DNA of 37,529 bases from Beijerinckiaceae bacterium (GTDB lineage Bacteria; Pseudomonadota; Alphaproteobacteria; Rhizobiales; Beijerinckiaceae). Positions 29,634-37,529 of the stretch are shown piece after piece. Within the stretch, counting starts at the first letter, position 1. Each line of letters opens with the position of its first letter. The stretch spans positions 1 through 37,529 of the forward strand of contig CANGTC010000017.1 of the NCBI GenBank assembly GCA_947456505.1, given 5' to 3'. The translations under genes and the position numbers were made by a program. The notes under the pieces were generated by a model. That model saw only the letters and a list, made by a program, of their open reading frames with translations. It was not told the DNA's origin and did not search any database.

Positions 29634-29651
29634 TGTATATTTGAGTTGACA
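29634..29651. promoter_or_regulatory. PpsR/CrtJ operator (TGT-N12-ACA) overlapping a -35 element
   Basis: TGT at 29634-29636 and ACA at 29649-29651 are separated by exactly 12 bases, the recognised PpsR/CrtJ half-site spacing. The right half lies within TTGACA (29646-29651), a perfect -35 hexamer oriented toward ppsR. The -10 element is not obvious. It sits 56 bases before the ppsR start in an AT-rich island, consistent with autoregulation. Similar sites were not found in the gaps upstream of bciB, bchG, pucC or the repeat-protein operon. Confidence 0.75.
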
Positions 29652-33934: not shown

Positions 33935-34873
33935 TTAATGGCTGGCCTTGCGCTTGTTCAGCAGCAACGGGATGCCGAACGCGCCCGAGAGCGAGCCGCC
34001 GCCTTTCAACACCGTGGGTATGCACAGGATCGATGAGAGAGGCGCGGGCGTGTCGCTCAGATTGTTCACGCCCGAGGACGGGAAGATCGGGGAGCTCTTC
34101 TCCGTCAGCACCCGCCAGCCAAAGAACCTCGACAGGGAAGCGGAATTGTCCACCAGCTTGGGCACGCCCTGCACCTGCGCATCCCAGCCGCGCTCATTGA
34201 TCAGCGAGGGAATGCGGAAAAAGGCCGAAAAGGGCGCCGCCACGCTGGTGAGTTCCGGCATGCGGAAGAACTCGTTGAAGGGGCGCCCGCTCTTGATGAG
34301 CAGGGGCAGATTATACCAGGAGGAGAGGGTCTGCTTGCTGCGCAGGAGCTTGGGGAAACCGAAGAAGGTGGTTTCAGTCGAGGGCTGGCGCCACAGGGTG
34401 GGAACGCTGAACCAATTGGAAAGCGGCGTAGAGGAGCGCACCAGCGAGGGCATGTTCCAGAAGGTTGCGAAGGGTGTGGGGTCGCGCAGCAGGACGGGGA
34501 GGCCGAAGACGGAGGAGAGCGGCGTGCCTTGATCCACGGTCGAAACGTAATAATCCTTGCGTTCGACGGCGCCCTGCTTGGGATTATGAGCGTTGAGAAT
34601 GGCCGTGGCCTTCAGGCCTACGCCCATCACCGCCCTGACCGCCACGAGTGAATGACCTTCCCGGATGGCGGCCGCGAAGACGCCTGCGTCACCGGCGGGA
34701 ACGCCCGCCTTGATGATGCGGTCCTCAAGCGTCATTTCAGCCTCCGAGGGGTCGTTCGGGGCCATGGAAATGAGATGGATCGCATTGTCGCCAAACCGGT
34801 TCCGCTTGAGTTCGTTCACCGCGCTCAAGGCGTCGCCATAGGCTTCATAAATTCGGGTGATGAGTGTGCTCAT
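33935..34873 (-). CDS. YflT-like domain protein with twelve 16-residue repeats (uncharacterised)
   Basis: A 312-residue soluble protein of unknown function. Residues 1-95 resemble the YflT/general-stress-17M fold: TRIYEAYGDALSAVNELKRNRFGDNAIHLIS, then IKAGVPAGDAGVFAAAIREGHSLVAVRA in outline. Residues 117-308 are twelve gap-free 16-residue units, best seen as TPLSSVFGLPVLLRDP and TPFATFWNMPSLVRSS. No signal peptide or transmembrane helix is visible. Its ATG overlaps the stop of the upstream 93-residue gene (ATGA). It lies between bphO and pucC. A regular solenoid, scaffold or pigment/antenna-associated role is possible, but nothing proves it. I do not recognise the repeat family. Confidence 0.85.
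   Translation of the reverse strand: MSTLITRIYEAYGDALSAVNELKRNRFGDNAIHLISMAPNDPSEAEMTLEDRIIKAGVPAGDAGVFAAAIREGHSLVAVRAVMGVGLKATAILNAHNPKQGAVERKDYYVSTVDQGTPLSSVFGLPVLLRDPTPFATFWNMPSLVRSSTPLSNWFSVPTLWRQPSTETTFFGFPKLLRSKQTLSSWYNLPLLIKSGRPFNEFFRMPELTSVAAPFSAFFRIPSLINERGWDAQVQGVPKLVDNSASLSRFFGWRVLTEKSSPIFPSSGVNNLSDTPAPLSSILCIPTVLKGGGSLSGAFGIPLLLNKRKASH
33950..34525 (-). repeat. Coding repeat array: 12 units of 48 bp / 16 residues
   Basis: Residues 117-308 of the protein divide exactly into 12 x 16. Consensus positions are 1 T/A, 2 P, 3 L/F, 4 S, 7 F (aromatic), 9 I/V/L/M, 10 P, 12 L and 13 L/V. Units 1-3, 5-7, 11 and 12 fit best. Units 4, 8, 9 and 10 are degenerate but keep the register with no insertion or deletion. 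The units are diverged in sequence, so this is an old, selected protein repeat and not recent slippage. Confidence 0.85.
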
Positions 34874-35151
34874 AGCGTTCGCGCCTGTCTGTTAGGGTTG
34901 AATTCGAGCGCCGCAACTATCGGCTTTGTGGGGTTTTTCGCCGACCACACGAGATGGTCAAATTTGATATAGAATGTGCTGTCTGGCAAGCCCGGCTGAT
35001 GCAATGACGCGGAGATTTCGCCGCCCTCGCGGGCCTTGCGAGGGATCATCCGCACTCTCTTGAAATGGCCGCCCGCCATTGCCCGCGCAAGGCATTGAAG
35101 GCTATCCTCAGAGCGAGACCGCAGCTCGTATTTTTGGCCGGGTGCTGACAT
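34870..35151 (-). CDS. 93-residue protein coupled to the repeat protein (unknown)
   Basis: A small, basic, probably cytoplasmic protein. It has an Arg-rich N-terminal half (YELRSRSEDSLQCLARAM, FKRVRMIPRKAREGG) and a C-terminal half with beta-type segments (STFYIKFDHLVWSAKN, PIVAALEFNP). Its TGA overlaps the ATG of the repeat-protein gene (ATGA), which supports it as a real gene despite its size. The start at 35151 is opposite the start of the divergent membrane gene (shared CATG), so both starts are uncertain. The family is not recognised. Confidence 0.65.
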   Translation of the reverse strand: MSAPGQKYELRSRSEDSLQCLARAMAGGHFKRVRMIPRKAREGGEISASLHQPGLPDSTFYIKFDHLVWSAKNPTKPIVAALEFNPNRQARTL

Positions 35152-35512
35152 GCCGATGTTTCCGTTTATCGTTCTCCCGCTCGCCGCCATGGCTCTTGGG
35201 CTGGTTCTCGTCATTCTCCACCTGCGCGGCATACGAAAGCCGCTGTTGATTGGATTGCATCTGCTTCTGGGCCTGGGCGCCCTGGAACTTCTGGTCGTTT
35301 TGCTGAAGGGCACGCCCAGCAACGATGGTTTGCCGCCCGGAGATTTCGGCAACGTCGCCGCCGGGTTTTTAGCTCTGGCCGCCTTTATCGGCCTCCTCAC
35401 CCCCATCCTTGGCCGACGCTCCCGCCTCACCGGCAACGCCATGCTTCTGGCCCATGTCAGCGCTGGCGTCGCGGGGGTTCTCCTGTGCATCGCCTGGGCC
35501 TCCGGTCTCTAG
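35150..35512 (+). CDS. Small four-helix membrane protein of unknown function
   Basis: A 120-residue hydrophobic protein with four predicted transmembrane helices (about 4-24, 31-51, 65-84 and 97-117) joined by short loops. The second loop carries KGTPSNDGLPPGDFGN. The ATG at 35150 overlaps the divergent gene's start; ATG at 35156 is a near alternative. Its stop overlaps the pucC stop tail to tail in CTAG. Location between the repeat-protein operon and pucC hints at a photosynthetic-membrane role, but no motif shows this. Confidence 0.7.
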   Translation: MPMFPFIVLPLAAMALGLVLVILHLRGIRKPLLIGLHLLLGLGALELLVVLLKGTPSNDGLPPGDFGNVAAGFLALAAFIGLLTPILGRRSRLTGNAMLLAHVSAGVAGVLLCIAWASGL

Positions 35513-36918
35513 GTCAAGGCGTCGCTGCGTCTGGCGGAGAGGCCCAGGCTTTTGCGCATAAGCGGCGCCATGGTCACGAGCGTCCAGATCAGCAGAATGA
35601 TTTCAAGGGTGTAGACACAGAGATAGCCGGTGGCGTGGCCGAACTGGCTCCGGGCGGGCGAATTCGCCACCACATCGCGAATAATGCCGCCAATCGCGAT
35701 GGCCAGTCCCGCAGCCACGGCCTGGGCCGCGCCCCAGGCGCCAAGCGCTAATCCAACCTGATTGCGCGGGGCGAGATTCATGGTGGACGTCAGAGTGCCA
35801 TGGCCGAAGAGACCTGCGCCAAAACCCACCAGAAGGGTGCCGACCGCAAAGAATTCGGGCATATCGAAAGGCGCCGCTGCGATCACCAGAAGGAAGGCGG
35901 GCACGCCCGTGAGGGCGCCATAGCTGGCCATGCGGAAGGGGTCGGCGCCCCGGCTCAAGACGCGCGAGGCGAGGGCGAGACCAAGCAGGCCCCCGCCCGC
36001 CAGAGTCGCCGTCAGGCTTGTCGTTGCGCCAACGCTTAGCCCGAGGATCTGCCCACCATAGGGCTCGAGCAAAACATCGGCCATGCTGAAGCCCATGGTG
36101 CCAAAGCCAACCGCCAGAAGCCGGCGCACCGCATGACCGCCCTCAGCGAAGGAGTCCCAGGACTCCCGGAAGGAGGGTTGGCGTTGCATGGGATTTCGTC
36201 GCGCCGCATGGCGCCCTTCCTGTTTCCAGGCGGCGACGCCATTCAGAACCAGGGTGATGACCGCGCAGGCCTGAATCACCTGAATGAGCCGCAGCGGGCT
36301 GAAGTCGTGCAGGGCCGCGCCAAAGCCCACCGCGCTGACGATCATGCCAAGCAGCAACATGACATACATAAGGCCGACAACCTTGGGCTGAGACTCCGGC
36401 GGGGCCAGATCGGTGGCCAGCGCCAGGCCGATGGTCTGCACGGTATGCAAACCCGCCCCGACGAGCAGAAAGGCAACGCCTGCGCCCAACTGGCCGACCC
36501 AGACCGGGTAGCGCGCCGACTCGCCACCACCCGACAGCACCAGCAAGGCGAAGGGCATGATGGCGAGGCCGCCGAATTGCACCATGGTGCCGCGAAAGAT
36601 GAAGGGCACACGCCGCCAGCCAAGGGCTGACTGATGGGTGTCCGACTTGAAGCCAATGAGCGCGCGAAAGGGCGCGAAAAGCAGCGGCAGGGATATCATG
36701 ACCCCCACCAGCGAGGCAGGCGCCGAAAGTTCGACGATCATCACGCGATTGAGCGTGCCCACCAGCAGGACAAGCGCCATGCCGACCGTGACCTGAAACA
36801 TGGAAAGGCGCAGCAGTCGCCCGAGCGGCAGATCAGCTGTCGCCACATCGGCGAAAGGCAGGAAGCGGGAGCCAAGGCCCACCCATGTGTGCATGAACTT
36901 CAGGCTGACGCGATTCAT
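35509..36918 (-). CDS. pucC: PucC/LhaA-family antenna assembly protein (BCD/MFS type)
   Basis: A 469-residue, twelve-helix major-facilitator-like protein needed for LH2 (PucC) or LH1 (LhaA) assembly. Diagnostic segments are VGMALVLLVGTLNRVMIVELSAP, APFRALIGFKSDTH and WRRVPFIFRGTMVQFGG in order from about residue 40 to 120. The ATG at 36918 (MNRVSLKFM) has AAAGGA upstream; a 31-residue upstream extension is highly basic and unlikely. It follows pucB-pucA on the same strand, with a stem-loop between, giving a pucBAC operon. I assign PucC over LhaA from that position. Confidence 0.93.
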   Translation of the reverse strand: MNRVSLKFMHTWVGLGSRFLPFADVATADLPLGRLLRLSMFQVTVGMALVLLVGTLNRVMIVELSAPASLVGVMISLPLLFAPFRALIGFKSDTHQSALGWRRVPFIFRGTMVQFGGLAIMPFALLVLSGGGESARYPVWVGQLGAGVAFLLVGAGLHTVQTIGLALATDLAPPESQPKVVGLMYVMLLLGMIVSAVGFGAALHDFSPLRLIQVIQACAVITLVLNGVAAWKQEGRHAARRNPMQRQPSFRESWDSFAEGGHAVRRLLAVGFGTMGFSMADVLLEPYGGQILGLSVGATTSLTATLAGGGLLGLALASRVLSRGADPFRMASYGALTGVPAFLLVIAAAPFDMPEFFAVGTLLVGFGAGLFGHGTLTSTMNLAPRNQVGLALGAWGAAQAVAAGLAIAIGGIIRDVVANSPARSQFGHATGYLCVYTLEIILLIWTLVTMAPLMRKSLGLSARRSDALT

Positions 36919-37040
36919 GATGTGAGCCAGTCCTTTCGGGGCCACATGGATCAAGGGACGACGGCGCGCCCTTTGATCCTTTTGTGGGCGTGCGCGCTTA
37001 TTCGCACGCAAATCCCGGCGTTGACCGCCGTTTGTTTGAA

Positions 37041-37094: not shown

Positions 37095-37316
37095 TTACTT
37101 GACGGTCGTCACATCGTTCATAGCCAGAGCGGCCGGAGCGGTCGTCTGGGTCTCGATCGCGACCTTCTTCTGACCGCCCTGCATGAATGCCGGGTACCAG
37201 GTGGTGTGCGTCAAGATGGAGTAGTGGATGATCAACGAAGTGATCGCCACTGCGCCGAGGAAAAGGGGAAGCCCAACGGTGGGCCTAACCACAGTCCAGA
37301 GTCTGCCTTGGTTCAT
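37095..37316 (-). CDS. pucA: LH2-type antenna alpha polypeptide (low-light form)
   Basis: A 73-residue single-helix antenna subunit. The N-terminus [21 protein letters not shown] is typical of LH2 alpha chains, His31 is the bacteriochlorophyll ligand, and [12 protein letters not shown] ends the helix. Residues 44-45 are Phe-Met where B850 LH2 has Tyr-Trp. Loss of these hydrogen-bond donors marks the blue-shifted LH3 (B820) and LH4 (B800) antennae. The C-terminal tail is about 20 residues longer than usual and Ala/Thr-rich. GGGAG precedes the ATG; pucB ends 12 bases upstream. Confidence 0.96.
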
Positions 37317-37328
37317 GTTCGATCTCCC

Positions 37329-37484
37329 TTAGTGAAGCCAGGGTGAATAAACATAGGCGAGGAAATGCGCGAACAGAGCGATGGCCCCGAAAACCCGGGT
37401 CCCATCGATCAGGTGCTTGTGCAAGTCCTCAGATTCCGCGGCGGTTAATCCCGTCGGCCAAACACGGTTTGGATCGTCTGCCAT
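37329..37484 (-). CDS. pucB: LH2-type antenna beta polypeptide
   Basis: A 51-residue single-helix antenna subunit. [21 protein letters not shown] (13-33) is the conserved cytoplasmic and early helix region, His40 in LFAHFLAY is the bacteriochlorophyll ligand, and YSPWLH ends the chain. GGAGG lies 8 bases before the ATG. It is the first gene of the pucBAC unit; its promoter lies mostly outside the window, so PpsR or other operators there cannot be examined. Confidence 0.96.
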
Positions 37485-37529
37485 ATCGCTACCTCCATAG
37501 AGAAATGCGATCATTATCGTGCTCACCCA

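Follow-up and report, generated by a model that had tools for sequence, protein, structure and literature searches.

PucE, a 14-kDa LH2 protein, is known from Rhodobacter capsulatus, and the LH2 of Rhodoblastus acidophilus is not known to contain a belt polypeptide. The R. capsulatus operon is given as pucBACDE in the available part of PMC9231093. The closest described system to the one analysed here is the gamma polypeptide of Rhodopseudomonas palustris LH2 (RPA1495; PDB 7ZCU, 7ZDI, 7ZE3, 7ZE8). The available sections of PMC9618040 describe gamma as an extended chain on the cytoplasmic side of the complex whose six repeats span six of the nine pairs, report it only from Rhodopseudomonas, state that Rhodobacter sphaeroides LH2 lacks it, and leave open (section 9) the reason for its incomplete coverage of the ring; in those sections no head-bearing relative is named in the complex. 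The LH1 gamma of Blastochloris viridis resembles it by description, as an extra polypeptide outside an LH ring, but consists of sixteen separate polypeptides around a 17-pair LH1 ring rather than one repeat ribbon (PMC10214105, available text).

The window analysed here, a stretch of 37,529 nucleotides from a Beijerinckiaceae bacterium (contig CANGTC010000017.1), carries LH2 genes together with a gene for a repeat protein, which we call REP:

33935..34873, minus strand: REP, candidate gamma-type LH2 accessory protein of 312 amino acids, ATG start
34538..34873, minus strand: N-terminal ferredoxin-like head domain of REP, residues 1-112
33950..34525, minus strand: twelve 16-residue gamma-type repeat units of REP, residues 117-308, defined by periodicity and predicted to be largely unstructured alone
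35150..35512, plus strand, opposite to the others: hydrophobic ORF of 120 amino acids between pucC and the repeat gene, role unassigned
35509..37011, minus strand: pucC, of the class accompanying LH2 (PF03209, E 1.9e-149)
37095..37316, minus strand: pucA, LH2 alpha, with F44 and M45 (PF00556; top PDB match 1ijd, B800/820 alpha)
37329..37526, minus strand: pucB, LH2 beta (PF00556)

The 120-amino-acid ORF was conserved at 53-90% identity across six same-genus loci, and a Pfam search with it gave no match. A TGT-N12-ACA site, which we take to be the PpsR pattern, lay at 29634-29651 on the plus strand just ahead of a ppsR-like ORF (29675), the count of such sites in the window being not above chance. 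Genes for a bacteriophytochrome and a heme oxygenase were present in the same window as the F44/M45 PucA. The PucA residues F44 and M45, by the rule given in the available text of PMC5069747, and its closest match of known structure, a B800/820 alpha chain, lead us to predict that the antenna is of the B800-820 (LH3) type and that PucA is a low-light antenna.

The initial annotation had described the C-terminal part of REP as twelve consecutive 16-residue units without insertions or deletions, and this was confirmed. Residues 117-308 divided into twelve such units with zero indels, and the BLOSUM62 autocorrelation of REP peaked at three lags (48, 32, and 16). The lag-16 value was 0.91 (z 11.4), whereas 2000 shuffled versions averaged −0.95 with sd 0.16 and had a maximum of −0.33. 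The N-terminal 112 residues gave no comparable peak. The unit consensus derived from eight close homologues, A-P-L-S-S-F-F-G-V-P-K-L-S-K-S-P, was close to the one first read from the sequence, and REP was kept at 52-87% identity in six genomes of the window's genus.

The AlphaFold2 model of the window protein had a ferredoxin-like head predicted with confidence (residues 1-100) and a tail with pLDDT of 41-60 (in blocks of ten), almost no secondary structure, and at most three short helices; a distant relative, L067, gave the same picture, with a confident head and a tail pLDDT of 41-58. Such low values are consistent with the expected look of a ribbon that would fold on a partner, and alone prove nothing. 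These predictions did not uphold the folded solenoid that had been suggested from the strict 16-residue register. A rival reading that builds on the early proposal has REP not bound to LH2, as a solenoid scaffold or a stress-linked factor with a YflT-like stress domain at its N terminus. PF11181 (YflT) weakly matched 2 of the 36 family members searched (best E 2.5e-4), which agrees with this reading, as does the register itself. For the window protein, no PF11181 match was obtained at E values up to 1, and the YflT-like assignment of the head has only weak support. Set against the largely unstructured tail, and against the kinship with gamma and the tight link to pucBA described below, a scaffold or stress factor off LH2 appears very improbable. 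Searches of the window protein against Pfam and NCBIfam gave no family match.

The relationship with gamma emerged from profile comparisons. When the family alignment was searched as a profile against 177,635 PDB sequences, the R. palustris LH2 gamma chain came first at E 0.011, the next match being at 2.1; a broader alignment run against the same 177,635 sequences again placed it first (E 0.024, next 0.066). With hhalign, family profile A1 and gamma were aligned over 68 columns (probability 76, E 2.3e-5) with prolines and glycines in register. Gamma likewise has an autocorrelation period of 16, and against the unit profile from the eight close homologues it scored 4.3 bits in all, a score reached by only 50 of 20,000 permutations of the 16 columns (same order in all repeats; mean −58); the agreement in register between the unit cores of the window family and of gamma goes beyond shared composition and a shared period. 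The two proteins thus have in common 16-residue units with a G-x-P-hydrophobic core in register and a puc-linked gene, and the extended chain seen in gamma would have its counterpart in the window tail. They differ in that gamma has no head, 97 amino acids, six units, and a bacteriochlorophyll-ligating Ser before Gly, whereas the window protein has 312 amino acids, a head, twelve units, and the ligand Ser in one of the twelve. The early remark that no named repeat has this pattern was accurate for Pfam and NCBIfam; the repeat is, however, that of R. palustris LH2 gamma, a known protein although not a filed repeat family, and the match to a well-characterised family that would have counted against the initial annotation was obtained only in part. 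Taken singly, each direct match between the REP family and gamma is marginal, and the kinship rests on a bridge protein.

This protein lies beside gamma itself. In the family of G107, gamma-like repeats turned up in 19 of 371 genomes, which carry three different genus labels. One of the 19 gamma chains matched the solved chain at all 91 residues used as query (100% identity), from which we infer that these genomes are Rhodopseudomonas and close kin. In 18 of the 19, the ORF ending directly before gamma has the REP-family head, at E 7e-15 to 8e-23 (for G1089 this was established via L217); in the nineteenth, gamma is cut by the contig end. At L209, the locus with the identical gamma chain, the order is pucB-pucA-pucC-head-bearing protein-gamma, and the head-bearing protein matched the family HMM at E 4.4e-37 and the head at E 9.8e-18. 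Its tail is a hybrid, the first and last units being of the family type (APFSNLIHAPVLL, TPFSSWLGLPVLL) and those between of the gamma type (YKSFSGTPLLL). Like the window protein it has a head domain, a repeat tail, and, at L209, a place after pucC; unlike the window protein it has about seven units, most of them gamma-type with Ser. The published locus numbers, RPA1491 and RPA1492 for pucBe and pucAe (PMC5069747) and RPA1495 for gamma (PMC9618040), in the available parts of both papers, agree with this gene order, and by locus numbering the head-bearing protein upstream of gamma is probably RPA1494. The gamma-bearing genomes hold head-bearing and headless forms side by side and, because a head-bearing protein with a hybrid tail adjoins gamma in 18 of the 19, gamma is most readily understood as a relative of the REP family that lacks the head.

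We consider it probable that the window protein belongs to the LH2 gamma family and is built of a ferredoxin-like head and an extended ribbon laid along the LH2 ring. We propose that the head would be, presumably, cytoplasmic and that the ribbon, having no fold of its own, would take shape when laid along the cytoplasmic rim of the ring, as gamma does, with roughly one 16-residue unit per alpha-beta pair. The ribbon would stabilise or shape the LH2 made by the adjoining pucBA, and the protein may also help PucC-dependent assembly, although we would expect it to be a lasting subunit rather than an assembly helper alone. With this proposal, a protein that has no Pfam or NCBIfam name gains a likely site of action.

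The initial annotation had placed REP between a phytochrome unit and the antenna genes and had suggested a link to light harvesting, and surveys of related genomes supported such a link, specifically to LH2. Within the genus, the REP gene occurred in 7 of 51 genomes, and the same seven, and only they, held the top-scoring PucC class (487-510 bits, the next match in the 51 genomes being at 463). Reaction-centre genes were present in 14 of the 51. Six of the seven REP carriers were among these 14, the seventh, G010, being a 920-contig assembly. As 8 of the 14 reaction-centre genomes lacked both REP and the LH2-class PucC, REP follows the LH2 antenna and not phototrophy as such. A common history of one linked operon could yield the same co-occurrence within a genus; mere hitch-hiking is disfavoured, however, because gene orders vary outside the genus. 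This variation was seen in 20 homologue neighbourhoods, of which six were from the genus, four from the same family or order, and ten were the strongest of 24 other genomes matched among 385 of the class, the set leaving out 14 weaker class matches (E 2.6e-9 or worse, mostly in the head region). The order was pucB-pucA-REP-pucC in many loci and pucB-pucA-pucC-REP in others, and in a few the gene was divergent, convergent, or upstream. All 20 neighbourhoods contained pucBA, and 19 contained an LH2-type pucC; the contig of the twentieth, L051, stops just past the repeat gene. In contrast, bphP or bphO was detected by tblastn in only three of the 20 (L054, L055, and L062), a fourth BphP match, at L051, being a short PAS match within ppsR, so that the phytochrome is not a constant neighbour. 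Homologues mainly in non-phototrophs away from photosynthesis genes were not seen; the 20 strong homologues all stood beside pucBA.

The distribution was also approached starting from the antenna. Named genomes were scanned with a PucC alignment, and of at least 566 confirmed loci the best 80 were taken. Of these best 80, 73 contained pucBA and 36 of the 73 a family member, a fraction biased upward by a PucC query drawn mostly from REP-carrying operons. In the other 37 of the 73, no family member was found in the fetched stretch, and some of these misses may reflect short contigs. Carriers among the best 80 of 566 came from Rhodobacteraceae, Roseiarcus, Elioraea, Hoeflea, Aestuariivirga, a caulobacterial MAG, Granulosicoccus, and Halieaceae, and one was labelled Myxococcota; a further family member, at L134 on a contig starting at pucC, is outside the 36. 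In some carriers, for example Roseiarcus fermentans (L077) and the Roseobacter of L131, a gamma gene separate from the family gene was not seen. Among betaproteobacterial-labelled pucBA loci of the same best 80, with taxon labels grouped by us, the REP family was found in none of 26. A PucC in an Anaerolineae-labelled record (L072), on a 3.2-kb contig, was 72% identical to the proteobacterial query and is perhaps a binning error.

A second sample, the family of the Gemmobacter record L136, was searched with LH2 alpha and was therefore independent of REP. LH2 alpha occurred in 37 of 295 genomes, at 40 places, and 39 of these regions were fetched, the fortieth lying in the genome of L113, which was already covered. 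Thirty-six of the 39 held pucBA and pucC, and in 31 of these 36 there was a REP family gene; four (L155, L161, L183, and L188) lacked it both by HMM and by eye, and the fifth miss, L151, is cut by the contig end. In the three remaining regions, with pucBA pairs but no pucC, a REP family gene was absent. The position after pucC, where those 31 of 36 loci have the REP family, is also that of PucD and PucE in R. capsulatus. Two loci fetched from a further 394 genomes had the gene (L224) or a headless relative upstream of pucB (L223). From these data, gamma, reported from one genus, looks like a single branch of a larger family that spans LH2 operons of alpha- and gammaproteobacteria and one Myxococcota-labelled record, with a head and up to twelve units.

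The arrangement of these loci bears on whether REP is a subunit of the antenna or an assembly factor, the tail of which would bind alpha-beta pairs or bacteriochlorophyll transiently and pass them to PucC, perhaps setting the number of pairs per ring, so that mature LH2 would lack REP; the headless copy, gamma, would then have become a lasting subunit in Rhodopseudomonas. The gene adjoins pucC in most loci examined, as a role in assembly would lead one to expect, and the R. palustris LH2 structures show gamma with no head-bearing relative named in the available text of PMC9618040, even though a gene for such a protein immediately precedes gamma in gamma-bearing genomes. Yet gamma, the relative of REP, is described in the same text as a lasting structural subunit, and LH2 operons without REP exist, which argues against a general need in assembly. 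We therefore regard a pure assembly factor as rather unlikely. For a REP that is a gamma-type subunit, the silence of the available R. palustris text on a head-bearing protein suggests that the form with a head may be associated only transiently or come off during purification, and the pucBA loci without a family member indicate that LH2 can do without the family.

The repeats themselves bear on pigment binding. The Ser before Gly is common to the six repeats of gamma, as read from its sequence, and ligates bacteriochlorophyll there. By eye, it was present in one of the twelve window units, and in the 71 detected genus cores it was found in none. At this position, position 7, 69 of the 71 had F, L, W, or Y; in 198 cores from 48 other proteins the residue was hydrophobic in 190, and none of the ten listed residue types was Ser. 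Because the ligand Ser occurs in just one of the twelve window units, pigment binding is doubtful, and binding in the gamma mode is, from these residues, unlikely for most units of the window protein; given the one window Ser and its absence from the 71 genus cores, REP is a variant relative and, strictly speaking, not a pigment-binding gamma. The gamma-family explanation also has a stronger version, compatible with it, namely a pigment-carrying belt in which each unit would ligate an extra bacteriochlorophyll through a Ser at position 4 or 5 or through the backbone, so that LH2 would gain B800-type pigments. Membership in the same family as gamma, and the Ser that 54 of the 71 genus cores have at unit position 4, are in keeping with such a belt, but with position 7 so uniformly hydrophobic we think it unlikely. 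What remains is a pigment-free belt, or a passing role in assembly alongside PucC.

The family varies in unit number, unit length, and head. Unit counts were six in gamma, about seven detected in Rhodospirillales-type relatives, nine in a second headless protein, and twelve in the window protein, and the twelve units exceed the nine pairs of a nonameric ring. The wider reading, that in many proteobacteria the LH2 complex contains a REP-family belt or is built around one, that gamma is a late, headless, Ser-bearing offshoot, and that unit number acts as a molecular ruler, is one we hold only tentatively, as possible but doubtful. If the ruler holds, unit number would govern the extent of ring wrapped or the ring size, and such a belt would have been overlooked because the model LH2 complexes show none. 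The family in any case offers natural variants for probing belt function, whether in ring size, stability, extra pigment, or low-light packing.

The second headless protein, of 145 amino acids with nine 16-residue units, was found in some gamma-bearing genomes (L212:10168-10620, L214:7076-7627, and L208:1727-2278), and its nine units equal the pair number of nonameric LH2. Headless repeat proteins of the family type also lay upstream of pucB on the other strand at L119:6742-7152 and L223:8433-8873, the former being the family member without a head among the 36 carriers of the 73 pucBA loci (best 80 of 566). Of 78 tails tested, 69 had a best lag above all 100 shuffles, and in 46 of these 69 it was 16, 32, or 48. 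Among eight long tails from Rhodobacterales-type loci, six peaked at lag 25 and two at lag 15, and the repeat unit is therefore not constant across the family. At four Rhodobacterales-type loci (L113, L127, L137, and L140), the 15- or 25-residue repeats were His-rich, for example RHARMANFPIPLLSRRKPFTGSIFP, and these residues are possible pigment ligands.
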